64,000 nucleotides of DNA, taken from contig NZ_LT629786.1 of the NCBI RefSeq assembly GCF_900105675.1, positions 5,084,001 to 5,148,000 of the forward strand. The letters are read 5' to 3'. A program made the translations under genes and the position numbers. The notes beneath the pieces are model-generated. The model worked only from the letters and a program-made list of their open reading frames with translations, did not search any database and was not told the DNA's origin. Source of the stretch: Pseudomonas synxantha (lineage in GTDB: Bacteria > Pseudomonadota > Gammaproteobacteria > Pseudomonadales > Pseudomonadaceae). Positions 43,246 to 61,483 of the stretch are shown in pieces (the first letter of the stretch is position 1; each line of letters starts with the position of its first letter).

Positions 43246-43252
43246 GCGATAG

Positions 43253-43283
43253 GGCCAACCTTCGGGTTGGCCTAGCTGACCTT
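43253..43283 (+). terminator. Probable terminator upstream of ssrA
   Basis: GGCCAACC-TTCG-GGTTGGCC, an 8-bp stem with a stable tetraloop, eight bases after the small exported gene. A short TTTT follows 10 bases later. Confidence 0.6.
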
Positions 43284-43338
43284 TTGGCGTACACTGCACA
43301 GGCTTGTCACTCACTAAGAAACAACGAGTTACAAGCAC

Positions 43339-43736
43339 GGGGCCGTTTAGGATTCGACGCCGGTTGCGAAACTTTAGGTGCATGCCGAGTTGGTAACAGA
43401 ACTCGTAAATCCACTGTTGCAACTTCTTATAGTTGCCAATGACGAAAACTACGGCCAGGAATTCTCTATCGCTGCGTAAGCAGCCTTAGATCCTGAGCTT
43501 CTGGTACCTTCGGGTCCAGCAATCACCAGGGGATGTCTGTAAACCCAAAGTGATTGTCATATAGAACAGAATCGCCGTGCAGTACGTTGTGGACGAAGCG
43601 GCTAAAACTTACACAACTCGCCCAAAGCACCCTGCCCTTCGGGTCGCTGAGGGTTAACTTAATAGAAACGGCTACGCATGTAGTACCGACAGCGGAGTAC
43701 TGGCGGACGGGGGTTCAAATCCCCCCGGCTCCACCA
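43339..43736 (+). ncRNA. ssrA: Transfer-messenger RNA (tmRNA)
   Basis: A 398-nt tmRNA that, with SmpB, frees stalled ribosomes and tags the incomplete protein. The 5' GGGGCCG pairs with CGGCTCC before the encoded CCA. The tRNA-like T-arm GGGGGTTCAAATCCCCC is present. The tag frame reads GCC AAT GAC GAA AAC TAC GGC CAG GAA TTC TCT ATC GCT GCG TAA (tag ANDENYGQEFSIAA). Its 3' end is the integration target of the island that follows. Confidence 0.97.
43712..43736 (+). other. Probable attachment site (attL) at the ssrA 3' end
   Basis: The tmRNA 3' end (GGTTCAAATCCCCCCGGCTCCACCA) is followed within 200 bases by a P4-type integrase reading away from it. The 3' end of ssrA is a well-known attB for such elements. 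A matching direct repeat should mark the island's right end, which lies outside this window. Confidence 0.65.
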
Positions 43737-43747
43737 ATCAAACATCT

Positions 43748-43776
43748 AAAGACGTCCAAGGACGTCTTTTTTTGTG
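43748..43776 (+). terminator. Terminator after ssrA
   Basis: AAAGACGTCC-AA-GGACGTCTTT followed by TTTTGTG, 11 bases beyond the tmRNA CCA end. Confidence 0.88.
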
Positions 43777-43848
43777 CCTTAAACCCAGCAAACATGGGGC
43801 CTTCAGCGCCATCATGATCTATCAGCGTCCATAGACATCCATGCAAAC

Positions 43849-43900
43849 GTGTATTCCAAGTGGTATTCCAAGCTCCCAGCTGGTAATTTTTGGAATACAC
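43849..43900. promoter_or_regulatory. Triple GTATTCCAA motif upstream of the integrase
   Basis: GTGTATTCCAA (43849-43859) and its exact complement TTGGAATACAC (43890-43900) form an 11-bp inverted repeat. A third, direct copy GTATTCCAA occurs at 43863-43871. The set lies directly upstream of the integrase start codon (43921), so it may be an arm-type integrase site or an operator. Confidence 0.55.
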
Positions 43901-43920
43901 AAACAGCATTGGGATACACC

Positions 43921-45177
43921 ATGTGCGCCCAAGCCACGCGCCTTTCAGACATGAAAGTCAAAGCCGCCAAGCCTAAGGAAAAGGACTACACACTCACGGA
44001 TGGCAACGGCCTCCAAATGCGAGTGAGAGTCAATGGCTCAAGGCTATGGAATTTCAACTATATCCATCCCGTGACCAAAAAACGGATCAATATGGGATTA
44101 GGTACCTTTCCCGAGATCAGCCTGGCCCAAGCCCGCAAACGGACAGTTGAGGCTAGGGAGCTTGTCGCCCAGGGACTAGATCCGAAAGAGCAGCGCGATG
44201 CTGATCGCCAAGTGAAAAAAGCCGCGACAGAGCACACGTTTCAAAACGTGGCGACGGCATGGTTTGAACTAAAGAAAGACTCAGTGACAACTGCCTACGC
44301 TGAAGATATTTGGCGCTCGCTCACGCTCCACATCTTCCCGGACATGGGCTCAACCCCAATTTCCGCAATCAGCGCCCCTAAGGTCATCAATTTGCTCAGA
44401 CCTCTTGAGACCAAAGGTAGTTTGGAGACTGTTAAACGGCTGACCCAGCGCCTCAACGAGATAATGACTTATGGGGTGAATTATGGGCTCATCCATGCTA
44501 ACCCCCTTAGCGGGATTCGCTCGGTCTTTAAGAAACCAAAAAAGAAAAATATGGCGGCACTGCCGCCCGATGAGCTAAATGAGCTCATGGTGGCAATTGC
44601 CAACGCCAGCATTAAAAGAACAACTCGCTGCCTAATCGAATGGCAGCTCCATACGATGACCCGACCCGCAGAGGCCGCCACCACTCGCTGGGCTGACATC
44701 GACTTCGAGAAGAAAATCTGGACGATCCCAGCGGAGCGCATGAAGAAACGTCGCATACACATTATCCCTCTCACGGAGCAGTCTCTGGCACTCCTAGAGG
44801 CCATCAAGCCCTACAGTGGAAACAGGGAATACGTTTTTCCTGCAGACCGGAACCCTCGCACTCACTGCAACAGCCAGACCGCTAACATGGCGCTAAAGCG
44901 TATGGGTTTCGAAGGGCGTTTGGTAAGTCATGGCATGCGATCAATGGCGAGCACCATCCTCAACGAGCAGGGCTGTGATCCTGAGTTGATCGAGGTTGCG
45001 CTTGCCCACGTCGATAAAGACGAGGTACGCAGCGCCTATAACCGAGCGGACTACATAGAGCGCAGACGCCCAATGATGAAGTGGTGGAGCGAGCACATCC
45101 AGGAAGCGGCCACCGGCAACCTCTCAGTGTCAGCAATCAAGGAAAACAGGGACAGAAAAGTCGTGTCGATACGTTGA
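43921..45177 (+). CDS. P4-type tyrosine integrase
   Basis: A 418-residue site-specific recombinase that would integrate and excise the island at ssrA. The N-terminal DUF4102 arm-binding domain (MKVKAAKPKEKDYTLTDGNG region), the core-binding domain and the catalytic domain are in order. Catalytic residues are visible: Arg in TMTRPAEAATTRW (about 247), His-x-x-Arg in SHGMRS (about 337) and Tyr in SAYNRADY (about 373). I chose ATG 43921. The frame extends 24 codons upstream through the repeated GTATTCCAA motifs. It appears intact. Confidence 0.93.
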   Translation: MCAQATRLSDMKVKAAKPKEKDYTLTDGNGLQMRVRVNGSRLWNFNYIHPVTKKRINMGLGTFPEISLAQARKRTVEARELVAQGLDPKEQRDADRQVKKAATEHTFQNVATAWFELKKDSVTTAYAEDIWRSLTLHIFPDMGSTPISAISAPKVINLLRPLETKGSLETVKRLTQRLNEIMTYGVNYGLIHANPLSGIRSVFKKPKKKNMAALPPDELNELMVAIANASIKRTTRCLIEWQLHTMTRPAEAATTRWADIDFEKKIWTIPAERMKKRRIHIIPLTEQSLALLEAIKPYSGNREYVFPADRNPRTHCNSQTANMALKRMGFEGRLVSHGMRSMASTILNEQGCDPELIEVALAHVDKDEVRSAYNRADYIERRRPMMKWWSEHIQEAATGNLSVSAIKENRDRKVVSIR

Positions 45178-45227
45178 TCTACGGCCCGGTGTCGGACAAA
45201 ACCCATGGTTCTCGGATAGAGAGAACG

Positions 45228-46958
45228 TCATTGCTCCGACACATCGTCGCTGGACTCCTCGACATCGGATTTCATCGTTGCGTACATCTTCTTGAGCAGT
45301 GGCTCAATGATGCGCTCCGCCTCGTCCCAGTAGTCTTCACGAAGCATCGAGTACTTCACGTCCAAGTGTATCTCTCTATCGAAGGGGAAGTCCGTTGGAG
45401 TCTCCAGTCCAACAATTAGCTGCATGTCCTCCGGCAACTCTTTAGCGATGAACTGAAGCACAGCGGGAAGATTAATATCGTCTTGAGCCTGCTGGTTCGG
45501 CGAGTCAATGACGACTGGTATATCGTACGTACCGGTCACACCTTGGCACGTTCGCCACAATGCGGCGTAGTAGGCCAAAATCGACCGAGGTCCGCCGCTT
45601 CCGGATAGGTCTGGACGGCTGGTGAGCTTCATCTTTGATGCGTCCACAGGGGGGAGCTGCAGCGCAACACGACCGGTCACGTAGTAGGATCTGAAGTCTT
45701 CCAAGATCGCCCGCGTTCTTTTCACGGCGCGCAGCGACTTCATCTTTTCATCTAATGAATCGACCGCACCTAGAGCCTTGTTGATCGCCTCTTGCAGCAG
45801 CTTACGCTCGGCTTCGAACGCCGCGAACGCACTTTCTGCGCCCATGCTACCAACGACGTCCTGGAACTTGAGCTCGCCTTTGCTCGTACCCAACAACGTG
45901 GAGATGCGCTGATAGTTCTCGTTAAGTGTGCTGAGTTCGGCCAACGCGGTTCTGCATCGATGCCGTACTTCGTTTGCGTCATCCCTAAGGCGTCCAGCGA
46001 GTTCACGTAGTACACGCGCGTCCTCAGCGAAATTGAGCAGATCTAGGAATGACTTGGTGTGCTCGGCGTTGCAAGTTGGGCAAACCAGCGGCTCAGAATC
46101 TCCAGTGCGCAGATACTTGGCATCGTGGTCATAAGCCGCGAGAGCATCATCGGCCAGCCGAATCTGTTGCTCCAAACTGGAAAGCAAGTCTTGCTCGCGG
46201 ACAGCAGCACTTCGTAGCATCTCCTGCCGCTGATTCAGCTCATTGACCTCTTGGGTCAGCAGATCGATCTCATCTGCAAAGTTCTCAGGGTTGAGCTTGG
46301 GACCGGATAAGGGCAGCGTACGGCTAAAGCGCTCTATAGTACGTTCAAGGAGTTTGTACTCGCGCCGATGCTCCTCAAGAACCTTGGACTCTTGAACCCT
46401 CTCTGCTCTAGCACGGTAGTACTCAGGCGGACACACACCAGTGAAGTACTCCAGAATGGCGCTCCAGGGGGAGCTGAATCTTTTGAGCCCGCCAAAGGTG
46501 TTCCACTCAGACTGCCAACTGCCGTCCTGATTTACATAGAAAGGCAAGAAGAAGCACGCAGGGTCCGCCGGCCGAATCTCTGACTCCTTCTTGTCAGTGA
46601 ACACTAGGTTGAAATCAGTGACGTCACAGAAGGCCTGAGACCACTCTCCAAATTTCGAGGTGGCGACAATCATCTCTCGATTGATGTTGAACAACGCACG
46701 CCGCCCGTTCTGGTGAAGCGCGAAGAAGTGACGCCCGTCGATAGAGAATTCAAGGAGTGATGCCGTGTTGTCGTCCCATGATTCCAGCTTCCCCTGAGGC
46801 TTGGCACCAAGAGTCTCAAAGAGACTGCGAATCAGACTCGTCTTGCCCGTGTGATTCCTCCCCCTCAACAAATTCTTCTTCGGGTGGAAGTTCACGTGCC
46901 TCGCCTTCCTGTCGCGATGCGAGAGCAGCCAGATGTTTTCGAATCGGAAGCTTTTCAT
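45228..46958 (-). CDS. SMC/Rad50-like ATPase with zinc-hook motif (LmuB-like)
   Basis: A 576-residue ABC-type ATPase. Walker A is GRNHTGKTS at 33-41. Coiled-coil regions (about 185-280 and 310-425) flank a CPTC pair at 293-296, which looks like a zinc hook. The ABC signature LSGSGGPRS is at 451-459 and Walker B PVVIDSPNQQ at 481-490. It lies 33 bases downstream of a DUF4297 nuclease gene on the same strand. This pairing is that of Lamassu (LmuA-LmuB) or ABC-three-component anti-phage systems. Which of them it is cannot be fixed by eye. Confidence 0.78.
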   Translation of the reverse strand: MKSFRFENIWLLSHRDRKARHVNFHPKKNLLRGRNHTGKTSLIRSLFETLGAKPQGKLESWDDNTASLLEFSIDGRHFFALHQNGRRALFNINREMIVATSKFGEWSQAFCDVTDFNLVFTDKKESEIRPADPACFFLPFYVNQDGSWQSEWNTFGGLKRFSSPWSAILEYFTGVCPPEYYRARAERVQESKVLEEHRREYKLLERTIERFSRTLPLSGPKLNPENFADEIDLLTQEVNELNQRQEMLRSAAVREQDLLSSLEQQIRLADDALAAYDHDAKYLRTGDSEPLVCPTCNAEHTKSFLDLLNFAEDARVLRELAGRLRDDANEVRHRCRTALAELSTLNENYQRISTLLGTSKGELKFQDVVGSMGAESAFAAFEAERKLLQEAINKALGAVDSLDEKMKSLRAVKRTRAILEDFRSYYVTGRVALQLPPVDASKMKLTSRPDLSGSGGPRSILAYYAALWRTCQGVTGTYDIPVVIDSPNQQAQDDINLPAVLQFIAKELPEDMQLIVGLETPTDFPFDREIHLDVKYSMLREDYWDEAERIIEPLLKKMYATMKSDVEESSDDVSEQ

Positions 46959-46991
46959 AGTTCTTAGTTCTCAAGCTACGAACGAGGAATC

Positions 46992-48155
46992 TCAGTTCGG
47001 GTCCACGCATTTCTTAATAGCCCTCATCGCAAAGCGCGCTAGAAGTTCGGCATCACGAAAGCTGCTGAAATCCTGTCTCAGCGCAGCTAACCCCGCCTCG
47101 AAATACGGTCGCAGGCCCAACCCGCGCGCATTGGCGTCGAGCCAGACATCACAAAAATCATGAAGAGATTGAACAACAGGCAGCGTCGCGCCTGTGAGTT
47201 GCTCACGCACAACTCGGGCCGCCTCCGCACGCATTGCAGTCACCACCATGAAATCCATTCCTTCGCTCTGCAGTTGCGTGAGCCAGTCATTCAGATATGC
47301 AGAGTGATCTGGAATGGTCTCGAGCGCACCCAGCGCAGAGATAAACTCGTGCCTTGCGAACCCTCGCTGCTTAACGAGATCGCCGAAAGATGAGCAAGTA
47401 TCAGTGTGGCGACCTAGAGGAGAAATCTTAGTAACGAGGGATTCTACGAACGATGCGGCTTGGCCCGCATGAGGAGGGCTCCGCTGCGTCAATAGCTCCA
47501 GAGCGGACTTGATGACGTAACTGCTGGGCTCATCAGGGTGGATGGCGACTCTCTTCAGTTTGAGCTTCGTCAAGTCTGGAACAGGTGAGCCATCAGCACT
47601 AAGCGAATGCAGAGCTTGAGCCAACAATTGCGAATGCTCAGGGGCGAAATCTGCCAGTGAGCAAGGCATTGACGTTGCAGCATTTCCTCCGGCAGCGAGG
47701 GGAATGTCACATCCAGCATTTGAAATGAAGTAGGCCTCGACGGGCAGTTTATTGAAGGCTGCAAGACTGAGCTGAAGCTTTCCTAGTGCACTGTCACTGA
47801 CCTTTGTAAATGTGGGTGTTACTGCCTTTGATGCAGTTGTCGAGCTCTTTTTCTTAGGAGGCGCCGTTGTCCCAGTGAGAACGGACCACGTCCACTCTCC
47901 ACGGTCCTTCTTTTTCACCTGATAAACACGAGCGCGCGTAGGAGTATTTACTGAGTTTAGTTCCGTGACATCTTGCACTGTCTCGAAAAGGAGCAAGAAG
48001 TCCGGTTCGTTCGCCCGCTCCATTTCCACCATTCGGAGCACCGCCCACCAGCGCTGAAAGTCCACGCCCTTAGCACCATGCCCTCCACCTGTCTCAGTGA
48101 GACCTGGTTTGTTCGCGACGAGAAGTAACTCTGCGGCACCAGCCGATATGGACAA
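46992..48155 (-). CDS. DUF4297 / Cap4-type nuclease effector (LmuA-like)
   Basis: A protein of about 387 residues. The N-terminal part has the DUF4297 pattern: KGVDFQRWWAVLRMVE, then LFETVQDVTEL and VYQVKKKDRGEW. The acidic residues and Q-x-K form a PD-(D/E)xK-like site. The C-terminal 200 residues are helical and unassigned, as in LmuA-type effectors whose ends contact the SMC partner. The start chosen is TTG 48155, which has an excellent AGGGAGG five bases upstream. GTG 48212 would add 19 residues but lacks a ribosome-binding site. It probably cleaves DNA once released or activated by the ATPase. Confidence 0.72.
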   Translation of the reverse strand: MSISAGAAELLLVANKPGLTETGGGHGAKGVDFQRWWAVLRMVEMERANEPDFLLLFETVQDVTELNSVNTPTRARVYQVKKKDRGEWTWSVLTGTTAPPKKKSSTTASKAVTPTFTKVSDSALGKLQLSLAAFNKLPVEAYFISNAGCDIPLAAGGNAATSMPCSLADFAPEHSQLLAQALHSLSADGSPVPDLTKLKLKRVAIHPDEPSSYVIKSALELLTQRSPPHAGQAASFVESLVTKISPLGRHTDTCSSFGDLVKQRGFARHEFISALGALETIPDHSAYLNDWLTQLQSEGMDFMVVTAMRAEAARVVREQLTGATLPVVQSLHDFCDVWLDANARGLGLRPYFEAGLAALRQDFSSFRDAELLARFAMRAIKKCVDPN

Positions 48156-48212
48156 GGCATCCTCCCTATGCACTTTCGCCACCAAGGATGGCACGCTGCA
48201 ATCATCAATCAC

Positions 48213-48989
48213 ATTTTGAGGACTGTAAAGGTATTAGGCATTGCCTTACCTCTTCCAAGGATGATGAGGCTGACATAGGCCATTTCGCACGACTGCCTTT
48301 ATTAAGGCGACTCGTACAAAATAATCACTTGCCAATCTTTTGGAAAAATACTCAGTGCTACATCACCGCCATGATAACCACGTCATTGAGCTCCCAATGT
48401 AAATGCAATGCCCTCTCTGTAACGCCAGCAAAATTGCTTCACTCTGAACGACCATAAAAATAGGCGCGACCATTGGTACCGTCGGCGGTGCCGCTCGGGG
48501 CTTCAGCGCAACTCTAGCAAGTGGGCCGGATGGTGAGCTCATCGGCGATGTCGGCGGCTGTGCGCGCAGCGCCCAACTGGGCGAGTCGCTCGAACACCAC
48601 GTTCTGGCTATACGGCTACAGAGGTAAGTAGACATACCTTCTTTAGCCGTTCGTTGAGCTCATGCCGTGCACTGCGCCGAGGTCTGAGCGATAAGCAACA
48701 TGCGCCTGGATTCCAACTCTTCGAAATAAGTGCTCGCCACCACGTTAAAGTTTTTTCTCTGACGGCCGATGTCCAGATGCCAGCATTGTACCAATGACGC
48801 GGGTGATCCACTGAGCTAGCAAGGACGATAAGGTGCTCAACCTGCCCGCACTACGCCTCCTTACTTGCCCTCAGTTTGCCACGCTGATTGGGTGCCCCTG
48901 CCTGAACACAACTTGCGCAGCCCATGAATTTGGATAGCCAACAGATCGCTGCAGAAAATCGAGCCCATTTAGTCAGATAGGAAGACACC
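48213..48989. other. 777-base gap with only gene relics
   Basis: There is no intact gene here. On the minus strand, short stretches look like decayed coding sequence: LDIGRQRKNFNVVASTYF around 48760-48670 and FERLAQLGAARTAADIADEL around 48595-48530, in different frames and both closed by stops. The second has helix-turn-helix flavour. The last 20 bases hold the AGGAAG ribosome-binding site of the dynamin operon. Promoters for both flanking divergent operons must lie here, but none is obvious. Confidence 0.45.
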
Positions 48990-51179
48990 ATGACTGCAGC
49001 TGAAGACCTCTCCGAAGGCCTCTATCTTAAACTTATCGATCACATCAGCACCTTGCTCAAAGCCTTGGCACGGGGTGCCGACGATCCAAGCCTAGCCTCG
49101 GCCCAAGCAGAGGCGCAGAGCAAACTGCAGGAAATCGAACAGGCGCTGACCAAGGCAATTAACGAGTTAAAGGACAACGCTGAACACAAGACCTTCACCG
49201 TTGCGTTCTATGGCGAAACCAACGCTGGCAAGTCTACGCTGATCGAAACCTTGCGCATCTTGCTCAGGGAAAACACCAAACGTGAGCAACGTCAGCGCTT
49301 CCTCGCCTTGCAGCAGCAGTCGGGGCTGAGCGAAGCGGCGTTGCAGGCACTGGAAACCGAAATCGAGTCGCTGGGAAGCCGCTTGGCTCAGGCCGAAAGT
49401 GCAACAGCCGCCACCGATGCTCGCCATGACCAGCGCCAAGTCGAACAGCAGTTGCAAGAAGACGCCCTGCGCACGCGTATCGAAGAGCAGAAACGAAGCG
49501 CTAATCCGATCCAGCGCATTCTCAACCTGCTGCGCAAGCTTCCCGAAGAAATCGCTCTGGTGCAGTTGCAGGCCGGCTCCTCCGTGCTGTCCGTACAGCG
49601 TGAAACCGAAATGACCACGCTACGTCAGCAAAGCGAAGATATTCAGTCCCTGCTAGCCGAAACCTGCCAACGTCATGCAACGGCACTGGATGGTCTACAG
49701 CAACTGGCCGCCTTCGAAGACGGCAGCATCATCGGTGATGGCCGCGCTGACTTCACCCGCCAAACCCAAGCGTATGCCTTTGATTCAGAAGGGCAGCACT
49801 TTCAGTTGCTCGATGTTCCCGGCATCGAGGGTGACGAAAGCAAGGTCAGCGAGCAGATAAGCAACGCGGTCAAGCGTGCCCATGCGGTGTTCTACGTAAC
49901 GTCCAAAGCGGCACCTCCGCAGACCGGTGATGCAGGCTGTCCTGGTACTCTGGAAAAAATCAAGGCGCAATTGGGTGCGCAGACGGAAGTCTGGACGCTC
50001 TACAACAAACGCATCACCAACCCAATGGCCCTGCAAAAACCCGCATTGATCAGCCCTGACGAGCAGGCCAGCCTGGATGATCTTGACCAGATCATGCGCA
50101 AGCAGCTGGGCGAGCATTACCAGCGCAGCATGACCCTCTGCGCCCTGCCCGCGTTCTATGCAGCAGCCGATTGCCTGGTACCACGCTCCACGATAGCGAC
50201 CAGCCGCAAGAAATTCCTCGATGCCATGGCGCCAGACGCGCTGCTGGAAAAATCCGGCGTCAAGCAGTTCTATCGGCACCTGACCCGAGACCTGGTCATA
50301 AACGTACAGACCAAGATACGCCGCTCGAACATGAACAAGGTTCAACTGGCGGTAACCGATGTTTGCTCAGAAGTGAAAGCCATCCAGGTCGCGCAGTTCG
50401 CTCCGTTGGCGAAAAAACTGCACGAGGAAGCCGAGAATGCCTGTCACCAGTTGCAAATTGCGTTTAAGTCCCTCAACAGCCGCCTGAGCAATGCGGGCGA
50501 GCAGGCCATCGGCGAGTTTGAAGACGCCGTGCGCAACCGCGTTTACGACAGCATCGACGACGACATCAGCAATGATGATTTCAAAGAAGCACTGGAGCAG
50601 GCGCTACAGAGTGAGCAGTCGGCACTGCAGGAAAAACTCCCCACAGCACTCGACAAGCAAGTCGAGCAGTTCCAGAAGAATGTCAGCGAAATCGTCCAGC
50701 GTTTCGAGGCTCATGCCAAAGACCTGCTGGCCGGCTACTCACAGATCGGCAAGGCACGCCTGGCCGGAGACTTCAGCCTGAACGTGAACATCGACAACGG
50801 GATCAACGTCGTAGGCTTGCTGGCCAGCCTGGCCGGTGGTGCAGTGTTGTTCTGGAACCCCGCCGGCTGGGTGCTGATGTCCATTGGCGTGGCGACGCTA
50901 CTGGTCGGTCTCGCAAAGGCCGTGTGGAGCTTTTTCGACAGTGACTACAAGAAAGGCCAACAGCGCAAAGCCACCGACAACAACCTCGAAAACGCTTGCG
51001 AGGCGATCCGCGACAGTTTCCGCGAAACCCTCGCGCAGGCGCTGCCGCCACTGGAAGAGAAAATCGAACAAATCCGTACCGTTCTTCGGCAACCCGCCCT
51101 GCAGGCACGGCACATCAACCAAAAACTCGACGCTGCCCACCTCGGCCTGAAAAAGATAGCCAGCGACCTCAAAGCATAA
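48990..51179 (+). CDS. Dynamin-like GTPase 1 (LeoBC/YfjP-like) with membrane hairpin
   Basis: A 729-residue large GTPase. G1 is GETNAGKST at 75-83 and G3 is DVPGIEG at 275-281. A G4-like LYNKRITN follows. Unusually, about 150 residues of charged, Gln/Glu-rich coiled coil (about 95-245) separate G1 from G3. A long helical stalk follows. A hydrophobic hairpin (604-649, two spans) could act as a membrane paddle, and a final coiled coil ends the protein. It starts at ATG 48990 behind AGGAAG and heads a four-gene operon. Bacterial dynamins remodel membranes, so a role in membrane defence or repair is an inference. Confidence 0.75.
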   Translation: MTAAEDLSEGLYLKLIDHISTLLKALARGADDPSLASAQAEAQSKLQEIEQALTKAINELKDNAEHKTFTVAFYGETNAGKSTLIETLRILLRENTKREQRQRFLALQQQSGLSEAALQALETEIESLGSRLAQAESATAATDARHDQRQVEQQLQEDALRTRIEEQKRSANPIQRILNLLRKLPEEIALVQLQAGSSVLSVQRETEMTTLRQQSEDIQSLLAETCQRHATALDGLQQLAAFEDGSIIGDGRADFTRQTQAYAFDSEGQHFQLLDVPGIEGDESKVSEQISNAVKRAHAVFYVTSKAAPPQTGDAGCPGTLEKIKAQLGAQTEVWTLYNKRITNPMALQKPALISPDEQASLDDLDQIMRKQLGEHYQRSMTLCALPAFYAAADCLVPRSTIATSRKKFLDAMAPDALLEKSGVKQFYRHLTRDLVINVQTKIRRSNMNKVQLAVTDVCSEVKAIQVAQFAPLAKKLHEEAENACHQLQIAFKSLNSRLSNAGEQAIGEFEDAVRNRVYDSIDDDISNDDFKEALEQALQSEQSALQEKLPTALDKQVEQFQKNVSEIVQRFEAHAKDLLAGYSQIGKARLAGDFSLNVNIDNGINVVGLLASLAGGAVLFWNPAGWVLMSIGVATLLVGLAKAVWSFFDSDYKKGQQRKATDNNLENACEAIRDSFRETLAQALPPLEEKIEQIRTVLRQPALQARHINQKLDAAHLGLKKIASDLKA

Positions 51180-51190
51180 GGAACTGCACC

Positions 51191-52897
51191 ATGAACTCGA
51201 CCCTTGAGCTCTTTCTGAACCAAAACAACAAGGCTCTGGCACTGCTGGACAAACTGCGAGTGTTCCTCGAAAAAGGCACGGCACTGGGCGTCAACATCGA
51301 CCCGACACTGCTGAGCAAGCTCGAACATGCCAGTCAGAACCTGGCCAACGACAAGCTGAAAATTGCCCTGATCGGTGGTTTCTCTGAAGGCAAGACGTCC
51401 ATCGCTGCGGCCTGGATGGAGCGTCTCGACAAATCCAGCATGAATATCAGCCAGCAGGAGTCATCGAACGAGGTGAAAGTCTACGAAGTAGATGACAACT
51501 TCGTGCTGATCGATACCCCAGGGCTGTTCGGTTTCAAGGAACAGTTCAACGCCGATATCAATGCGATGGAGAAGTACAAGGACATCACGCGCAAATACGT
51601 CAGCGAAGCACACCTGGTGCTGTACGTGATGAACTCGACCAACCCGATCAAGGACAGCCATAAAGATGACCTGAACTGGCTATTCCGCACGCTCGACCTG
51701 CTGCCGCGCACCGTTTTCGTGTTGAGCCGTTTCGACGAAGTGGCCGACGTGGAGGATGAGGCCAGCTATGCGCAGCACCTGCAGGTCAAACGCAGCAATG
51801 TGGAAAGCCGACTTCGCGAGTCCATCGGCGCCAGCGACGCGGAGGTGGCGGCACTGAGCATCGTCGCAGTGGCGGCAAATCCGTTCGACATGGGCACCGA
51901 TTACTGGCTCGAGCGGATCGAGCAGTTCAAGACACTTTCGCACATCAATAACCTGCAACAAGCAACCGCCGGCAAAATCCAGTCCAGCGGCGGCTCTGCG
52001 GTAATCGTCGAGCAAGCGCGAAAGAGCGTGATCCTCGACGTGCTGCACAAAGAGTTGCCAGTGGCGGTGGAAAACGACCAACGCCTGGGCGAAGAAGTAG
52101 AGCGCCTCAGCGGCGTCAGCCGCACGCTCAGTCGTCAGCTCGATAGTGCCAAGGGTCAGATCGGTGAGGTACGCATTGGCCTGCGCGAATTTGTCACCCG
52201 CTATTTTTCCGGGTTGATCATGCGCACTGAAGGGCTGACCCAAGAGACCTTCAAGGAGTTCTTCGAGCGCGAGATTGGGCGCGATGGGGTCATGGTGACC
52301 ACACGCCTGCAAAACGAATTCGATCGTCAACTCAACGGGGTGAGCCAGGAGCTCAGCCGCATGCGGCTGAGCTTCGACTCCGAAATCGATCACTTCAACA
52401 CCAACGTGATCAACCTGGGCAAGCAAGGCGTGAACTATGTGATCAAAGGCAACCTGATCAACAATGGCACCATTCTGGCTGCCCGAGACGGCATCGTCAG
52501 CGTAGCCAAGACCCTCGGCGTAGATTTGGGCAAGGCACTTAAATTCAAGCCTTGGGGCGCGGTTAACCTGGCGAAAAACCTCAACGGCATCCTGTCGGTT
52601 GCAGGCCTGGCACTGGAAGCTTGGGACAGCTATGAGCGCAAGAAACGCGAGGATCAGTTCAGACAGGCCATTGCAGAGATGGTGGACAACTTCAACAACC
52701 AGCGTGAAGAACTGTTGAACATGATTCAGGACGTCTCGTTCGAGGAGCGATTCTTCCCTGACTACGCCTCGCTTGATGCCAATGCTGCTGATGTTCAGGT
52801 CGCCATCGATACGCAGAAAAAGCTACGTGAACAATTCCGGGAATGGCGCCAAACCGGGGAATTGATCGAAGCCGAATTCACCCGGATCGAGGGCTGA
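51191..52897 (+). CDS. Dynamin-like GTPase 2 (LeoA-like)
   Basis: A 568-residue GTPase. An N-terminal helical segment (1-55) leads into G1 GGFSEGKTS at 62-70, G3 LIDTPGLFGF near 107-115 and a G4-like FVLSRFDEV. Helical stalk and tip regions follow, with a weakly hydrophobic region near residues 410-475 (VNYVIKGNLINNGTILAA and NGILSVAGLALEAW). Length and the GGFSEGKTS loop match LeoA of enterotoxigenic E. coli, a dynamin that works with LeoB/LeoC. ATG 51191 sits 11 bases after the stop of GTPase 1, so the two are surely co-expressed and probably form a hetero-assembly. Confidence 0.75.
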   Translation: MNSTLELFLNQNNKALALLDKLRVFLEKGTALGVNIDPTLLSKLEHASQNLANDKLKIALIGGFSEGKTSIAAAWMERLDKSSMNISQQESSNEVKVYEVDDNFVLIDTPGLFGFKEQFNADINAMEKYKDITRKYVSEAHLVLYVMNSTNPIKDSHKDDLNWLFRTLDLLPRTVFVLSRFDEVADVEDEASYAQHLQVKRSNVESRLRESIGASDAEVAALSIVAVAANPFDMGTDYWLERIEQFKTLSHINNLQQATAGKIQSSGGSAVIVEQARKSVILDVLHKELPVAVENDQRLGEEVERLSGVSRTLSRQLDSAKGQIGEVRIGLREFVTRYFSGLIMRTEGLTQETFKEFFEREIGRDGVMVTTRLQNEFDRQLNGVSQELSRMRLSFDSEIDHFNTNVINLGKQGVNYVIKGNLINNGTILAARDGIVSVAKTLGVDLGKALKFKPWGAVNLAKNLNGILSVAGLALEAWDSYERKKREDQFRQAIAEMVDNFNNQREELLNMIQDVSFEERFFPDYASLDANAADVQVAIDTQKKLREQFREWRQTGELIEAEFTRIEG

Positions 52898-52904
52898 GAT
52901 CATA

Positions 52905-53582
52905 ATGAACACGATGTGCGTAAGCCGCTGGTTAATGGTTTCCCCAAAGGGCCCCGAAACTTGCGCAGAGAATGGCGCCCTGGTGCATCTGCGCCAGGGC
53001 GATGCCGACGGCGCTTGTGGCCCATACGCGCTGATGATGGCGTTGCTCACACTCGGCGTGCTAGAGCGTAAAGAGATCACTGATATGAATCTCTGGGATG
53101 GTCGCAGCCGCGAAGGCAAGTTTCGTAGCGCGCTGATCTCCCATGGCGCGCTGATTTCCTCCGGAACCAACGGCGAGGATCTGGCTAGCCTTGCCCAACA
53201 CTTCCGTGGAAGTGGTATTGAAGTCGAGCACGTGACAGGCAGCAAAAAACAGCTAGTCAGCGAACTACGCGATGCGCTGGACAGGAACGGCATTCCATTG
53301 ATAGGCGTAAGCTGGTCGAAGCATAGTGGCCACTGGATGATGGTCGTGGGCCATCAAGGCTATGAACACGAAGGTCAATATCAACTGACCCATTTGCTCT
53401 GTCTTGACCCTAGTACTGAACCCCCCAGGGCCTCCCTCTGGAACGCAGTGATTGAGGTATTCACTGAAGAGGGCCAGTCAGTGTCGCGCGGTATCTACAG
53501 CAGTAATCACTGGGGAATGGACGGCCATACCAGCACCTGCAAGCTTGATGAAGCGGTTGTGCTCGAATGCAATGAGGAGTGA
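52905..53582 (+). CDS. Papain/C39-like cysteine peptidase candidate in the dynamin operon
   Basis: A 225-residue protein. The catalytic layout of a papain-fold peptidase can be read: Gln31 and Cys38 in RQGDADGACGPYAL, His143 in SGHWMMVVGH and Asp168 in LCLDPSTEP. Such folds include C39 bacteriocin peptidases and toxins. There is no signal peptide. It begins eight bases after the second GTPase, inside the same operon. The start could be the second ATG, three codons in. Activity on the GTPases or on host proteins is a guess. Domain similarity to the protein at 59661 is noted separately. Confidence 0.6.
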   Translation: MNTMCVSRWLMVSPKGPETCAENGALVHLRQGDADGACGPYALMMALLTLGVLERKEITDMNLWDGRSREGKFRSALISHGALISSGTNGEDLASLAQHFRGSGIEVEHVTGSKKQLVSELRDALDRNGIPLIGVSWSKHSGHWMMVVGHQGYEHEGQYQLTHLLCLDPSTEPPRASLWNAVIEVFTEEGQSVSRGIYSSNHWGMDGHTSTCKLDEAVVLECNEE

Positions 53583-53589
53583 TAAAAAC

Positions 53590-53928
53590 ATGTCAGACAA
53601 CGCATTTGAAAAGGACTACTCGGACAATTCCTTCTGGGAAAAAATCAAAAGCCATGCAAAATCCGCAGGCGAGGCCGCCCTCGAGCCAGCGCTGAAGATG
53701 TATTACGCCGCAACAGATTCGGATACCCCAACGTGGGCGAAAACTACCATTTATGGAGCGCTGGGATATTTCATCTCGCCGATCGATGTCATCCCGGATA
53801 TCACTCCAATCGTAGGATACACCGACGACATCGGCGTTTTATGCGCGGCTTTGGCCGCAACCGCGACCCACATCAAGGCCGAGCACGTGACTCGGGCGAA
53901 GCAAACACTGAAACAGTGGTTCTCCTGA
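53590..53928 (+). CDS. DUF1232 (YkvA-like) small membrane protein
   Basis: A 112-residue protein. The YkvA/DUF1232 motif is clear in the second half: YGALGYFISPIDVIPDITPIVGYTDDIGVLCAAL. It forms one or two short hydrophobic helices around a conserved S-P-x-D-x-x-P-D motif. ATG 53590 has only a weak upstream site and is seven bases after the peptidase stop, so it is the last gene of the dynamin operon. DUF1232 proteins are of unknown function, often membrane-associated. The upstream part of the frame, inside the peptidase gene, is not coding. Confidence 0.85.
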   Translation: MSDNAFEKDYSDNSFWEKIKSHAKSAGEAALEPALKMYYAATDSDTPTWAKTTIYGALGYFISPIDVIPDITPIVGYTDDIGVLCAALAATATHIKAEHVTRAKQTLKQWFS

Positions 53929-53937
53929 TCGCAACGC

Positions 53938-53972
53938 GATGCCTCACGCAAGACTGTGTTTGAGTGAGCATC
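53938..53972 (+). terminator. Possible terminator of the dynamin operon
   Basis: GATGCCTCACGCAA and TTTGAGTGAGCATC form an imperfect stem (one bulge, one mismatch) 10 bases after the DUF1232 stop. The tail is CGACAAAAC, so there is no U tract and termination is uncertain. Confidence 0.4.
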
Positions 53973-54139
53973 GACAAAACCGGGCCATCACAATCTGACA
54001 CTCCATGCGTCCCAGACTCCTGGATTACCAGCCCAGCCCCTCAAGACGCGTCACCGACTTGAACGCGACAACCATCACATCAACCTTACACGGCGCGGTC
54101 ACCATGCGTCCGGCCATCACACCTTGCGTGACTAGACCG

Positions 54140-54522
54140 TTAGCCAGTATGCGGCAGCAACTGGTCGACTTCACTCACCAGCTGCGTCGGCAGGCGCGTG
54201 GGAACATCCTTCTGATACGCGTACGGATCATGTCCATTCAGTAGAGAAACTGGATCAAAAGCATAAGCGCAGCCGCCCGTTTACCGCTGCGCAACGAACC
54301 TACAAAGAGCCAGTTCTTGCGCCCAAGTGCCAACGGCCGAATTTGGTCCGCCGCCCAATTATTATCAACAAGTACGGCTCCACCGTCGAGGTAGCGCAAC
54401 AGAGCTGCCCTGCGTTTCAGGCTGTAGTCCAGCACTCTGCTGAAAGCCGAACCTTCGGCCACGAGATAGCGCTGGATGATCATCCAGGCATGCAGTGTAC
54501 TCATCACCGGCGCGGACACCAT
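54140..54522 (-). pseudogene. IS66-family transposase, C-terminal remnant with frameshift
   Basis: The minus strand encodes the end of an IS66 TnpC: LHAWM, then DYSLKRRAALLRYLDGGAVLVDNN, then IRPLALGRKNWLFVGS. After LLIQFLY the frame stops. The rest (NGHDPYAYQKDVPTRLPTQ to LLPHTG) continues in another frame, so one frameshift is present. The N-terminal three quarters and the accessory genes are gone. Beyond its stop, GCGTCCGGCCA near 54107-54117 resembles an IS66 terminal inverted repeat. It marks an old insertion between two island modules. Confidence 0.85.
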
Positions 54523-54828
54523 GCCCTTAATGCTGGAGTTCGAAAGGTGTGTTCCCGGTACGCTTTCGATAATTTTAGGTTACGCTTCGCACCATACTGC
54601 ACCAAAGAAAAAACCGAATTAGCCGGCTTGTTTCTGAAGAACAAGGCAGAGCGCTACATGACTCTGTAGGTGACCGCAGGCTGGTGAGACCAACACCACG
54701 AAATGGTGAGATTATGGGGGGATGGCGAACAGTTTAACTAAGCTGCTACCCGCAAAACTGTCACAGCAGTCTCCTGTGCGTACAAAATTCTGCATGCCCT
54801 CGAGATTGTAGGTGGATAAATACAACAA
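54523..54828. other. Intergenic region after the IS66 remnant, no gene seen
   Basis: These 306 bases have many stops in all frames. They may include scrambled ends of the IS remnant. The last 40 bases (TTGTAGGTGGATAAATACAACAA) are AT-rich and carry the likely ribosome-binding site AGGTGGA of the helicase gene. I see no convincing promoter or repeat. Confidence 0.4.
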
Positions 54829-57654
54829 ATGAATTCGAATAATTTTTATCCTCTAAAAGCTCGCTGGCCCCAGCTGTATCAGCATGCATCGTTTGCCGAA
54901 TTCTACGTGTTTTCAGATCCGCACACGGCGGCCATCAAGATGCGCTGCTTCGCTGAAGTCCTGGTTGGCATTCTCTACAGAGAGCTGAGACTTCCGAGCG
55001 AACCGACAGATGGTTTTTTTGAAAAGCTCAAATTGCCGGATTTCCGGGAGGTTGTCGGCGACACCGTCCTCCAAAAGCTCCACGCCCTTCGGATGCTCGG
55101 CAACAAAGCCGCCCACGGCAACTCGATGGGTGCCGATATTTCCCTTCTACTGATTGAGGAGGCATACCTTATCGGTCAGTGGTTTTACAAGACCTACAGC
55201 GGGGAATGTCTCGACGAGTATCCGCCCTACACTGCTCCGACTAAACCCTCTGAGCATCTCGCAGAGGTGAGCAAGGCAGGAGAAAACCTTGCTAAACAGT
55301 TGGCAGCTGCAAAGGATGAGTTGAGCCTATTGGAGGCTGCGGAGAAAGCCGCCCAAGCCGAAATAGCAACCCTAAACCAGACGCTTGACGAGGCTAAACT
55401 CCGAGATTTCAAAAACTCGGCCGCGCGGGTCACCGAAACAATCGATTTCAAATCCGCGCGCACGCGCAGGCTGATAAGCACTAACGACGCCTTCGCCGGG
55501 TATTCACTGACTGACGGACAGGCGGAGCTGATTAACCGGCTGGAACGATTCCTCAACGGCAATGAGGAAAGCGTGTTCCTCCTCAAAGGCTACGCGGGCA
55601 CCGGCAAAACCTTCGTCACCAAGGGCCTGACCGAGTATTTTCGCGCGATAGGCCGAAACTACGTTCTTGCCGCGCCGACCGGCAAGGCGTCAAAAGTAAT
55701 CGCCAGCAAGACAAAGTCACCCGCTTACACGATTCACAAGACCATTTACTCGTTCGACGACATTTCTGAGTACCGCGACGCCGGGATGGACGGAACCGAG
55801 ACGTTCAAGTTCTACGCTCAAGTGGCGGTGAACAGCCTTTCAGCTGATACGGTCTACATAGTGGACGAGGCGTCCATGATTGCGGATATCTACCAAGAGG
55901 CGGAATTTTTTCGTTTCGGGACGGGATACCTGCTTGCCGACTTCCTCAAGTTCGTGAACCTAGACCACAACGATCACAGCAAAAAGGTGATTTTCATCGG
56001 TGACGACGCGCAGTTGCCACCGGTGGGCATGAGCTTCTCGCCTGCTCTGGACGCGGATTACCTATTGCGCAAGCATCACACACGCTCGACCGGGTACGAA
56101 CTGTCGGAGGTGGTTCGGCAAAAATCGGAAAGCGGCGTAATCGCAAACGCAATACCGATTCGAAAGTCTTTGCAAGCCAAGGTTTTCAATCAACTGGTGA
56201 TCGATTTCGACCATCCCGACGTCCAGAAGGTGGAACACCAGGATCTGATGTTGCGCTATCTCGAGTCCTGCGGCGGCAAGATTAACGGGGAATCCATAGT
56301 CATCGCGCACTCAAACTCCGATGTTGGGGACTACAACCGCCAAATCCGAGAGCATTTTTTCCCAGGCTGTCCAGAGGTTATGCCCGGGGACAAGGTCATG
56401 GCCGTCTCGAACAGCGACGCCTGCGGGATATTCATCTCGAACGGTGATTTCGGCTTGATCCGGCAGGTAATTTCCTCCCCGGAGAAACGAACCATTACGC
56501 TTAAAAGGAAAGTCCCTGACTCGGGGAAACTCGAGGAAACACCGGTTCTGCTGACGTTTCGTGATGTAGTGGTAGGCTTCAAAGATCTGGAAGGCGTTGC
56601 TCGTTTTTTCCAGATAAAAATCCTGGAGGATCTGCTCTACAGCAAGGAGCCTGGCCTCTCGTCCGATCAGAACAAGGCACTCTATCTGGATTTCTGCATT
56701 CGCAACGAAGGCATTAAGAGGAACAGCGCCGAGTTCAAGCACAAACTGAAAACCGATCCGTATTTCAACGCGCTGAGGCTCAAGTTCGGCTACGCAATCA
56801 CCTGTCACAAAGCCCAAGGCAGCGAATGGAATCATGTGTTTGTGAAATCCAAGAGCCACCAAAGCCAGCTGACAGCCGACTATTTCCGCTGGTTCTACAC
56901 CGCAATCACGCGCACGGCAAAAAACCTTTATTTGCTCGACCCGCCGAACCTGCAACCGTGGAGCCGCATTGAAATCGTTTCGAATCCTGCTTTGGACTTT
57001 CTTCAATTCCCGAATCCGCTGAAGGATATTCTTGCCATGCCCGCCAGCCCACAGCAGACGTCTGTGGCCCTTGCTCTGCAGAACTCCGACACATTTGGCA
57101 TTCCCCCGACGGCGTCGTTTCTGCTTTCTCTGCTGGCCGAGGTCTGCAAGCTGATCGACGGCCAGGGCATCGCCATTGAGGAGGTGTTTCACAATCAATA
57201 CCAAGAGGTTTACCACTTCAAGCGCGAAGCAGAGTTTGCTCGGATAGACATCGCCTACAACAGCAGGAACAAGGTTACCAGCGTCGCTGCCCCCCGCCTT
57301 ACGGACCTGGGCGCCAAGTTGGCAGCTCTACTCGCTCCGCTCAAAGGCAAGCCACTGTTTGCGGGCACAGACTCCCCGATTATCGAGATGCGCTTCGCCA
57401 AGCCATTCCTGAACGATTTCCACGAGAGGGTTCTCAGCCTTTGCGGTGAGAGCGGCATTGCCGTTCAGAAGGTTGTAGAGCAGCAATGGTCCCAGCGATA
57501 CAGCTTTGCCAAAGATGGCGCGGTCGCCGTTTACGATGTCTGGTACAGCGCGAAAGATCAATTCACGAAGTGCCAGCCACTGATCAGCGCCTGCTCGCCG
57601 GGCTCGTTGGTCGGTGACGTCGGCTTACTTCTTACAAAAGGAATGCAGGGGTGA
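54829..57654 (+). CDS. DUF4145-SF1 (RecD-like) helicase fusion
   Basis: A 941-residue protein. The N-terminal part (about 1-140) resembles DUF4145/HEPN-like helical domains (FAEVLVGILYREL, then KLHALRMLGNKAAHGN). A coiled coil follows (about 145-205). The SF1B helicase has Walker A GYAGTGKT at 254-261, DEAS near 346, GDDAQLPPVG near 391, and the C-terminal HKAQGSEW near 660 with YTAITRTAKNLYLL. About 200 further residues are unassigned. Its stop overlaps the next start by four bases. Its function may be nucleic-acid unwinding in defence. I do not recognise a named system. Confidence 0.75.
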   Translation: MNSNNFYPLKARWPQLYQHASFAEFYVFSDPHTAAIKMRCFAEVLVGILYRELRLPSEPTDGFFEKLKLPDFREVVGDTVLQKLHALRMLGNKAAHGNSMGADISLLLIEEAYLIGQWFYKTYSGECLDEYPPYTAPTKPSEHLAEVSKAGENLAKQLAAAKDELSLLEAAEKAAQAEIATLNQTLDEAKLRDFKNSAARVTETIDFKSARTRRLISTNDAFAGYSLTDGQAELINRLERFLNGNEESVFLLKGYAGTGKTFVTKGLTEYFRAIGRNYVLAAPTGKASKVIASKTKSPAYTIHKTIYSFDDISEYRDAGMDGTETFKFYAQVAVNSLSADTVYIVDEASMIADIYQEAEFFRFGTGYLLADFLKFVNLDHNDHSKKVIFIGDDAQLPPVGMSFSPALDADYLLRKHHTRSTGYELSEVVRQKSESGVIANAIPIRKSLQAKVFNQLVIDFDHPDVQKVEHQDLMLRYLESCGGKINGESIVIAHSNSDVGDYNRQIREHFFPGCPEVMPGDKVMAVSNSDACGIFISNGDFGLIRQVISSPEKRTITLKRKVPDSGKLEETPVLLTFRDVVVGFKDLEGVARFFQIKILEDLLYSKEPGLSSDQNKALYLDFCIRNEGIKRNSAEFKHKLKTDPYFNALRLKFGYAITCHKAQGSEWNHVFVKSKSHQSQLTADYFRWFYTAITRTAKNLYLLDPPNLQPWSRIEIVSNPALDFLQFPNPLKDILAMPASPQQTSVALALQNSDTFGIPPTASFLLSLLAEVCKLIDGQGIAIEEVFHNQYQEVYHFKREAEFARIDIAYNSRNKVTSVAAPRLTDLGAKLAALLAPLKGKPLFAGTDSPIIEMRFAKPFLNDFHERVLSLCGESGIAVQKVVEQQWSQRYSFAKDGAVAVYDVWYSAKDQFTKCQPLISACSPGSLVGDVGLLLTKGMQG

Positions 57655-59546
57655 TTACAAACAAGGAGGTTTTCGCCAAACGCAAGGAAGGTGCGATCGA
57701 TGAGGCATATCGGATGGCACTGGAACTGATGGGGGCACCGCAAGTAGATGACTGGGACCGGAAAGCATTCTGCTGGACCCTGATCGACCTCATCAAGCGG
57801 GACGCCAAAAGCGGGAACCAAGAGAACCTGCCCCACTACCGCAATCAACTGGAAGGCAGCAAAGTCGACCTCTCAGACGACGTGCTCGCCAAGGGGATTC
57901 GTAATGCCCTGGCGCTGTGCAATTCCCACGGGCAGCAGATCAGCCAGGCGAAAGCCCTCAGCAAGGATGGCCAGCATGCGCAAGCAGCTGTCGTTTATCG
58001 CACGGTGTGGGCCGACGGCGCCGCCGACAAGGAAACCCAGACTGGCCTTGGATGGGCGTTGTTCAAGCACTCCAAGGAGTTGATGGCTGCCGACAGCGTT
58101 AACCTCGGAGCCATCAAGCGCAACCTGCACGACTATCTCAAGCTGGATGTTGAAAAGCCTTCGCTGCTGCACGCATGCGTACTTCAACTTGCCGCGAAAC
58201 TCGCAGGGCAGGACAAATTGAGCATGCTTGGTTTTTCGCGCCTGTGGAAACTAGAATATCTGCGCTCGGAGGATTTCGAGCGCTATCGAGCGGAGGACGG
58301 CAAGGAATACCCGTCCTTGGCGGAGAAGGTCATCCAGCAGGCAGGTAAGGAGGCCAGCGCCTCAACCAACGCCGAAGACCAGAATTACATGCTTCCCCAT
58401 ATCAACGCGGCAATCGAGCGATTTCCCGACAACATCTGGCTGAAACTCGATAAAGCGAAGGTGCTCTTGTCCTTGGGCGCGCATGACGAGGCCTTAGCCT
58501 TCGGGCTCCAAGTCGCTAAGGCCAAGGCAAACGACTACTGGGCTTGGGGGTTACTGGGGGACATCGTTTCTCGCACCGACCAGCAAGCGGCGCTCGGCTG
58601 TTACTGCAAGGCACTGTCCTGCCCCGCCGATGAAAAATTCACGGGAAAAATCAGGCTCAAAGTCGCTCAACGAATGTTGGAATGCAATGACTTGTCTGCC
58701 GCCAAGCGCGAAATCGAGACGGTTATCGCCTCCAAGGAGAATGAGGGCCACAAAATTCCCGAAACCGCGGCTCAACTCGCTTCTCAGCCATGGTTTGCCG
58801 AATCGCAGGCCAGCGCTTCAAACCGCGCCTTCTATCAGACTCATGCGGCAGCTGCCGAAACTCTGCTATTCAGCAACTTGCCTTGGCAAGATGCCAACAT
58901 TGGCGAAAAATTTACGGTTCCAGGCAAAGAGGACAAGCCGAAGCGGAGGTTATTCCTGAAAACCTCCTCTATCCCGACAGAGGTGAGCATTTCCGAATCC
59001 AAGGTTGGACGCAAGAAGCTGGCTCCGGGCAATGCGGTCAGGATCAAGGGCGAGTTTGACGACAATCAGAGGTTCAGGATTTTCGTGCTGGAAGACAGGC
59101 CATCCGAAACGCTTTGGGATGTTTTTCCGGAAAAAACAGGTGTGATCGACCACATCAACAAGGACAAGCACGTCCTCCACTTCATCGTCGACCGCGAGAT
59201 AGAGGGTGTAATCCCTCTTTCCGAACTGTCCGGTTCTTTCGTTGAAGGGGACTCGATAGGTCTAAGGCTATCCCGATACACGTCAAAAAAAGGCCAGGGG
59301 TTCCGTGTGCATCAGGCTTGGTCGACCGACAAACAGCCAGATGCACATGTCAAAAAGGCATTCTGTGAGGAGGTCCGCGTATCCAATGGCATGGGCTTCA
59401 CGGAAACCGACATCTTCGTTGCGCCCCCGCTTGTGACAGAGCACGGAGTCGAGGATGGCCGGAAAATATCTGGCACTGCTGTGCTGAGCTACAACAAGAA
59501 GCGGGCTTGCTGGGGGTGGAAAGCCGTTTCGATTGACGCAGAATGA
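57651..59546 (+). CDS. TPR-like protein with C-terminal OB/S1-like domains
   Basis: A 631-residue protein. The first 390 residues are helical repeats of TPR type (QISQAKALSKDGQHAQAAVVYRTVW and later LLGDIVSRTDQQAALGCYCKAL). The C-terminal 180 residues look like two small beta-barrels. One has GVIDHINKDKHVLHFIVDREI near 497-517, similar to S1 or cold-shock folds. The GTG start overlaps the helicase stop, so the two are translationally coupled and likely interact. There is no catalytic motif. It may be a scaffold or nucleic-acid sensor for the helicase, which is an inference. Confidence 0.65.
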   Translation: MITNKEVFAKRKEGAIDEAYRMALELMGAPQVDDWDRKAFCWTLIDLIKRDAKSGNQENLPHYRNQLEGSKVDLSDDVLAKGIRNALALCNSHGQQISQAKALSKDGQHAQAAVVYRTVWADGAADKETQTGLGWALFKHSKELMAADSVNLGAIKRNLHDYLKLDVEKPSLLHACVLQLAAKLAGQDKLSMLGFSRLWKLEYLRSEDFERYRAEDGKEYPSLAEKVIQQAGKEASASTNAEDQNYMLPHINAAIERFPDNIWLKLDKAKVLLSLGAHDEALAFGLQVAKAKANDYWAWGLLGDIVSRTDQQAALGCYCKALSCPADEKFTGKIRLKVAQRMLECNDLSAAKREIETVIASKENEGHKIPETAAQLASQPWFAESQASASNRAFYQTHAAAAETLLFSNLPWQDANIGEKFTVPGKEDKPKRRLFLKTSSIPTEVSISESKVGRKKLAPGNAVRIKGEFDDNQRFRIFVLEDRPSETLWDVFPEKTGVIDHINKDKHVLHFIVDREIEGVIPLSELSGSFVEGDSIGLRLSRYTSKKGQGFRVHQAWSTDKQPDAHVKKAFCEEVRVSNGMGFTETDIFVAPPLVTEHGVEDGRKISGTAVLSYNKKRACWGWKAVSIDAE

Positions 59547-59660
59547 CTAGTGCCGTTGCTGCGGCGCCTCAGGAGGCTGTTGGTCGTGTTGTGGAATGCG
59601 GGGTTGGAGTGAGGCGTCTACCAGCGCCTCAGATTTGGCATAGAGAGAAAGGAAGTAGAT

Positions 59661-60281: not shown

Positions 60282-60364
60282 AAATCCCTCGGTGATACTA
60301 GAGCTGATGCGGTGCAGGCGTGGTTGGCGCGCTTTTGACGATTTTTCAGTTCAAGGAAGTTGAA

Positions 60365-61366: not shown

Positions 61367-61483
61367 TGCGAAAATATATCCGTGCTGGACTGCGCGACAG
61401 TCCAGAATGGGAGATCTTAAAGGCTTGATTTTGCGTTTGGGGTCAGCGTGATGACCTCTCTCGGTCTCATTAGTCAAGTCGAA

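Follow-up and report, generated by a model that had tools for sequence, protein, structure and literature searches.

An Eleos-type dynamin gene pair followed by a predicted papain-fold peptidase and a DUF1232 protein in a Pseudomonas synxantha genomic island

We analysed a four-gene cluster at positions 48990-53928 of a 64,000-nucleotide stretch of Pseudomonas synxantha DNA (assembly GCF_900105675.1, contig NZ_LT629786.1, positions 5,084,001 to 5,148,000 of the forward strand), the whole of which is referred to below as the window. Judged by their sequences, the first two genes are the GTPase pair of Eleos, a known dynamin-type defence system, and the two genes behind them encode a predicted papain-fold cysteine peptidase and a DUF1232 (YkvA-type) protein. 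Our tentative reading of the cluster is that of an Eleos variant in which the usual hydrolase module is missing and the peptidase and DUF1232 protein are present instead, possibly acting together with the GTPases.

The Eleos core and the two genes behind it

The four open reading frames all lie on the + strand with spacings of 11, 7 and 7 bases, just as the preliminary description of this DNA had them. The first (48990-51179) encodes a dynamin-like GTPase of 729 residues that matches the PADLOC LeoBC model across residues 6-727 (550.2 bits, E 2.2e-165). The second (51191-52897) encodes a dynamin-like GTPase of 568 residues that matches PADLOC LeoA (577.4 bits), NCBIfam NF041922 (LeoA/HP0731; 695.4 bits against a cut-off of 325) and Pfam DLP_helical (402.2 bits). 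Both PADLOC matches span nearly the whole protein, and leoA follows directly downstream of leoBC across the 11-base gap, in the same order and on the same strand as in Eleos. The core is assigned to Eleos because of the PADLOC and NCBIfam matches, which rule out an unnamed GTPase pair and do not support the view that no named system applies. Eleos is defined here by the names of the PADLOC models and by a remark in the accessible text of PMC11811056.

The G1 and G3 motifs reported earlier for both large GTPases were recovered by motif scan. LeoBC carries G1 as GETNAGKS at residue 75 (49212-49235, + strand) and G3 as DVPG at residue 275 (49812-49823, + strand), 200 residues past G1; the corresponding motifs of LeoA are GGFSEGKT at residue 62 and DTPG at residue 108. 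Residues 604-649 of LeoBC (50799-50936, + strand) form a hydrophobic stretch with Kyte-Doolittle 19-residue means of up to 1.93, which may be a membrane-inserting paddle, and no stretch of LeoA exceeds the same threshold. Elsewhere in the genome (6.84 Mb, a single contig) Dynamin_N has just one match, weak and within a frame of 308 residues, which we take to be Era.

All four reading frames appear to be real genes, because they are under purifying selection as measured by the ratio of nonsynonymous to synonymous substitution rates (dN/dS). The ratio is 0.13-0.14 for leoBC, 0.05-0.09 for leoA and 0.03-0.04 for the DUF1232 gene, each from two comparisons, which for the GTPase genes include the window. 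For the peptidase gene it is 0.21 in the sole comparison that includes the window, where synonymous sites are near saturation, and 0.04-0.12 in five comparisons among other genomes. Promoter-like sites (4, against 3.3 in shuffled sequence) and terminator-like sites (11, against 8.4) are near chance. The four genes are probably co-transcribed.

The third gene (52905-53582, + strand) encodes a 225-residue add-on that is, by sequence and structure model, a predicted papain-fold cysteine peptidase with its predicted catalytic residues intact. An alignment of 44 peptidase sequences bears out the Gln-Cys-His-Asp layout noted previously: Gln31, Cys38 (codon 53016-53018, + strand) and His143 (53331-53333, + strand) are invariant, and Asp168 (53406-53408, + strand) is at least 90% conserved. 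In the structure model Cys38 opens a helix (38-49) and His143 opens a strand (143-155). The window's peptidase matches no Pfam family at E values up to 0.01, and membership of a curated family was rejected, the only hits being sub-threshold (SidE_DUB, E 0.017; DUF3335, E 0.06). Among its relatives C39_2 is matched by 2/44 and C39 by 1/44, all below the curated cut-offs, and a search of the peptidase profile against solved structures returned designed helical repeats and other seemingly spurious matches. The closest database relatives (P0001-P0006) are 64-96% identical. Further relatives occur on three plasmids and one unverified phage scaffold; a scan of viral contigs gave no relative, and none of its 17 pattern matches was confirmed.

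The fourth gene (53590-53928, + strand), directly behind the peptidase gene, encodes an add-on of 112 residues whose DUF1232 core, also recognised earlier, matches Pfam PF06803 with 57.4 bits against a cut-off of 23. Its structure model is of low confidence (mean predicted local distance difference test score 67.7). Proteins related to it at about 70% identity are found in other Proteobacteria, for example Vibrio and Alcaligenes, among the best 120 of 1211 matches.

Partners of dynamin-like GTPases in other genomes

Of 398 Pseudomonas genomes, 25 gave a LeoA match with an E value of 1e-40 or better. We define as close Eleos loci those with a LeoA match at E below 1e-100; there are nine, including the window's, and regions of 15-19 kb were read around the other eight pairs. 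An alpha/beta-hydrolase of DUF726 type is present in 7/9, fused to the N-terminus of LeoBC in six (G134, G389, G078, G194, G229 and G255) and encoded by a separate gene directly upstream of leoBC in G156. Pfam names DUF726 for the G194 protein only, and the other hydrolases were assigned by their similarity to it. No hydrolase is present in the 15 kb around the Eleos pair of G059 or in the window, and no relative of the peptidase or DUF1232 protein in the regions around the other eight pairs, so that the window alone among the nine has both. Compared with the known Eleos system, the window has these two genes in addition and has no DUF726-type hydrolase module. In G194 a peptidase relative lies 41 kb from the Eleos pair, and leoA of G255 is interrupted by a frame that is presumably transposase-like. 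Fused DUF726-type hydrolase-LeoBC proteins are also seen in L093 (10300-13335), L018 (383-3622), L132-L135 and L138, named by Pfam for L093 and assigned by similarity for the others. L018, from outside the 398-genome sample, has its Eleos pair 4.7 kb before a peptidase gene.

The closest relative of the window is G156, with LeoBC 78% and LeoA 85% identical. DNA homology between the two covers positions 48972-52893 of the window, comprising both GTPase genes plus 18 bases ahead of them and leaving out the tail. Because this homology stops at the GTPase genes, we regard the tail as the variable part of a constant Eleos core. A tblastn search of the window (43001-62000) for remains of the G156 hydrolase near the operon gave only matches at E 3 or weaker, and such a remnant was rejected. 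The G156 hydrolase belongs to the same family as a stand-alone hydrolase beside the peptidase in L091 (7420-9051; E 1.3e-116), and the C-terminal part of the L091 protein matches PADLOC JukA (E 6e-9).

One genome per species was scanned for peptidase relatives, giving 48 loci. The complete four-gene set occurs outside the window only in L003 (P. putida ASAD), which is 99.8% identical over 18.7 kb, and in L050 (P. fluorescens PS918; 96% identity over 4.4 kb) there are both GTPase genes and, of the peptidase gene, just the start. Conservation of the four families as a set, which had been proposed as a check, was not found: the exact set is confined to one lineage, and only 1/9 close Eleos loci has both extra genes. 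The concern that the peptidase and DUF1232 genes might stand beside such GTPases in this genome alone was dispelled, as each recurs beside dynamin-like GTPases elsewhere.

The peptidase is present in 13/398 Pseudomonas genomes and lies directly behind a same-strand GTPase gene in five (the window's own G000, G057, G204, G003 and G106), with gaps of 7 to about 390 bases. Ahead of it are five GTPase genes with one small open reading frame among them in G057 and G204, and a septin/AIG-like GTPase pair in G003 and G106. In G226 and G236, which share one island layout, the peptidase gene lies 12 bases before a DUF726/DUF900 hydrolase gene, and a three-dynamin operon stands about 1 kb beyond. Same-strand pairs of peptidase and hydrolase genes occur in four distinct loci (L009, L015, L016 and L083), with 12-27 bases between the longest reading frames (19-27 in L009, L015 and L083). 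A hydrolase partner, a co-directional GTPase operon or the two together accompany the peptidase in 10 of 24 distinct loci of its defence branch; the 24 exclude repeats and matches (L003, L017, L020, L084, L086, L087, L090, L091 and L092) and the remnant L050. In a peptidase tree of 53 sequences, the seven rows with a same-strand GTPase gene require 3 changes relative to the rows with other labels; the bootstrap range is 3-3 changes, and the starred branches force at least 2. L085 and L086 have five GTPase genes (a septin/AIG-like pair and three LeoA/LeoBC-like genes) and one small reading frame, followed by the peptidase gene; those relatives of their GTPases that were scanned in PADLOC match LeoA/LeoBC weakly or not at all.

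Close relatives of the DUF1232 protein (at least 76% identity, the window's own included) are found in 7/398 Pseudomonas genomes. In G359, G283 and G344 they are 87-93% identical, and their genes come directly after the last gene of a three-dynamin operon, with about 76-82 bases between; in G329, G116 and G189 no dynamin gene is nearby. The three-dynamin operon (about 570-616, 745 and 700-800 residues) is conserved in L124, L125, L126, L139, L140 and L141. Three of five scanned proteins of this operon match PADLOC LeoA/LeoBC weakly and two are unmatched, and its accessories vary by locus, being DUF1232, peptidase and hydrolase, or neither.

Proximity to dynamin genes was compared in 76 genomes, comprising all 13 with the peptidase, all 7 with the close DUF1232 relative and 57 others, leaving out Dynamin_N matches of roughly 308 residues. 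The control gene was the HSDR_N domain (77 matches, 31 of them in frames below 900 residues that may not be restriction genes), in place of LmuB, which was given up as being present in 4/398 genomes only. A dynamin gene lies within 10 kb of the peptidase gene in 6/13 places, of the DUF1232 gene in 4/7 and of HSDR_N in 2/77. With the window's genome removed the counts are 5/12 for the peptidase (P = 0.0003) and 3/6 for DUF1232 (P = 0.002). When HSDR_N was limited to frames of at least 900 residues (2/46 near a dynamin gene) the values were P = 0.003 and P = 0.008, respectively, and with G226/G236 and G057/G204 merged the peptidase was near a dynamin gene in 4/11 (P = 0.002 against 2/77).

Possible roles of the added genes

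Little is understood of how bacterial dynamins confer protection against phage. For the Eleos variant proposed here, the family and the hydrophobic stretch of LeoBC suggest that LeoBC and LeoA would assemble with GTP at the inner membrane upon a disturbance caused by infection. This assembly would set the peptidase to work close to the membrane with the help of the DUF1232 protein, and the peptidase may there cleave host or phage proteins so that infection is stopped or delayed. The peptidase would then be the effector, recruited to the membrane, and the Eleos pair may protect this host against phage. The preliminary description had seen a membrane-acting defence unit in the operon. This is partly supported for the operon as a whole, by the Eleos-type dynamin pair, by the location in a defence island, with Lamassu adjoining and TOTE-like genes downstream, and by the recurrence of each add-on next to dynamin-like GTPases elsewhere.

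A wider and more doubtful proposal is that dynamin defence operons are a GTP-driven chassis with exchangeable hydrolytic arms, in which hydrolase, peptidase and DUF1232 move between at least three kinds of operon (Eleos pair, three-dynamin and five-GTPase), the window being a peptidase-armed Eleos. Such exchange would be analogous to the swapping of effector domains on other bacterial immune scaffolds. If it holds, the attached enzyme would be part of dynamin defence, beyond membrane remodelling alone. The window and G156, with closely similar GTPases and different tails, are natural variants suited to a direct module-swap test.

Several observations weigh against a functional bond between the added genes and the GTPases. 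The exact four-gene set is found in one lineage only, so that its co-conservation cannot be shown, and in L050 both GTPase genes are under purifying selection though the peptidase gene is reduced to its start. G059 has an Eleos core without either add-on, and the Raoultella plasmid L142 has a 38%-identical Eleos pair with no annotated add-on directly behind it. The labels on the peptidase tree are only weakly more clustered than chance (30/500 shuffles as low). The peptidase gene adjoins type I restriction genes in L012, as do distant relatives in L027 and L048, type IIG restriction genes in L013 and L014, and a ZacA-family gene in L018. In L004, L006, L011, L081 and L082, whose neighbours were outside the PADLOC scan, queries for GTPase, hydrolase, restriction and HEPN5 genes found no match nearby. 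HEPN5 is our working label for a 216-residue island gene product with no Pfam match and no evident role. A second branch of the peptidase (12 loci: L025, L032-L034, L036-L039 and L041-L044) resides in Pseudomonas chromosomes, 9/12 with one common neighbour family, and looks like a chromosomal fixture. DUF1232 matches at E 1e-4 or better occur in 341/398 genomes. For HEPN5 itself, 8/11 places have a dynamin gene within 10 kb, and closeness to dynamins therefore partly reflects common islands. Only direct co-directional adjacency sets the add-ons apart from HEPN5: a same-strand GTPase gene adjoins the peptidase gene in 5/13 places, DUF1232 in 3/7 and HEPN5 in 0/11 (P about 0.04 each; the first two counts read by eye, that for HEPN5 checked place by place, with a HEPN5 remnant in the window as the eleventh place). 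Since the counts include the window itself and loci related to one another, this contrast is no more than suggestive. The GTPase gene found some 300 bases from HEPN5 in G008 is on the opposite strand, and HEPN5 stands behind DUF1232 in G359 and G283.

The peptidase and DUF1232 genes could accordingly be separate passengers that were recombined behind Eleos and are functionally untied to the GTPases or inactive, a somewhat less probable alternative in our estimate. It would account for a set confined to one lineage, for a peptidase whose neighbours are various unrelated systems or include none of the genes searched for, and for the richness in dynamin genes of such islands, as the HEPN5 control indicates; the DNA alignment of the window's DUF1232 block with the DUF1232-HEPN5 block of three-gene dynamin loci is a sign of block exchange. 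It fits less well with the 7-base gap behind a GTPase gene, with direct adjacency to GTPase operons of different kinds, and with the relatedness of the hydrolase paired with the peptidase to that fused to LeoBC in other Eleos loci. Should the extra genes prove mere passengers, the cluster would be a warning that short gaps inside islands mislead.

The mitochondrial dynamins Mgm1 and OPA1 are controlled by cleavage, and by analogy the peptidase might be a regulator or processing enzyme that cleaves LeoBC or LeoA and so switches the dynamin on or off. The peptidase does share a gene cluster with the GTPases, and the LeoC anchor has been compared to the long Mgm1 isoform in the accessible text of PMC4159319. 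We nevertheless consider this role unlikely, given the restriction-associated peptidase genes of L012, L013, L014, L027 and L048, which have no dynamin match nearby, and the 8/9 close Eleos pairs that have no peptidase nearby. More improbable still is a role in membrane vesicles or secretion and not in phage defence, as proposed for LeoABC of enterotoxigenic Escherichia coli (ETEC) H10407, where disruption of leoA or leoB roughly halves vesicle release (PMC4159319, accessible text). The island of the window also carries Lamassu, TOTE-like and Mrr-type genes, and islands of the same transfer-messenger RNA (tmRNA) class are described as carrying predicted phage-defence genes (PMC12595487, accessible text).

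The Eleos variant remains our preferred reading, and parts of it recall systems already described. As in the window, the ETEC LeoABC genes are tandem dynamin-like genes with leoA last; unlike here, the first dynamin is divided between two proteins, LeoC and LeoB, vesicle secretion was studied, and a word search of the accessible text found neither 'protease' nor 'hydrolase' (PMC4159319). DynA of Bacillus subtilis is likewise a bacterial dynamin, reported to act against phage via delayed lysis, but it is a single dynamin and the abstract names no peptidase partner (PMC8844932). Conflict systems dependent on nucleoside triphosphates couple an NTPase element to peptidases, but these are mostly trypsin- or caspase-like, and a word search of the accessible text found no mention of dynamin, DUF1232 or YkvA (PMC7159879). 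Literature searches, with most subscription journals outside their reach, found no description of this gene set, none linking DUF1232 or DUF726 with dynamin, and only plant RING papers for DUF1232 alone.

Island setting and a split HEPN5 remnant

The island that holds the operon begins where the tmRNA gene ends (43339-43736, + strand; ARAGORN, pattern search and published site). A tyrosine integrase gene follows (43849-45177, + strand; Pfam PF00589, NCBIfam NF007246 at 502 bits). As in the tmRNA/IntY islands of Pseudomonas (PMC12595487, accessible text), the integrase gene comes directly after the tmRNA gene, whose end carries the identical 14-base sequence (43723-43736). A second exact copy of this repeat was not found on the + strand of the window's genome; the sole other exact copy has the - orientation and lies 112 kb ahead of the end of the tmRNA gene. 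One such island, I55, carries dynamins, which are reported to have given no protection against the phages tested there (PMC12595487, accessible text).

The LmuB and LmuA genes of Lamassu (45228-48212) adjoin the operon on the opposite strand. In L050 most of this pair is gone at the DNA level and Eleos is kept. Downstream of the operon are TOTE-like genes (54829-59546) and an Mrr-type nuclease gene (60320-61366).

HEPN5 follows DUF1232 in the dynamin loci L124 and L125. In the window a first HEPN5 remnant (54017-54103, + strand) is 79% identical at the DNA level to L130 (over 54017-54089) and 86% to L125 (over 54038-54103), and it continues 7.6 kb on (61680-61791, + strand; 78-80% identical to L124, L125, L130 and L005). 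The block of about 7.6 kb that splits the remnant contains the TOTE-like genes, the Mrr-type gene and a fragment that we take to be IS66-like. It looks like an insertion, because GGTCACC is present at both of its edges.

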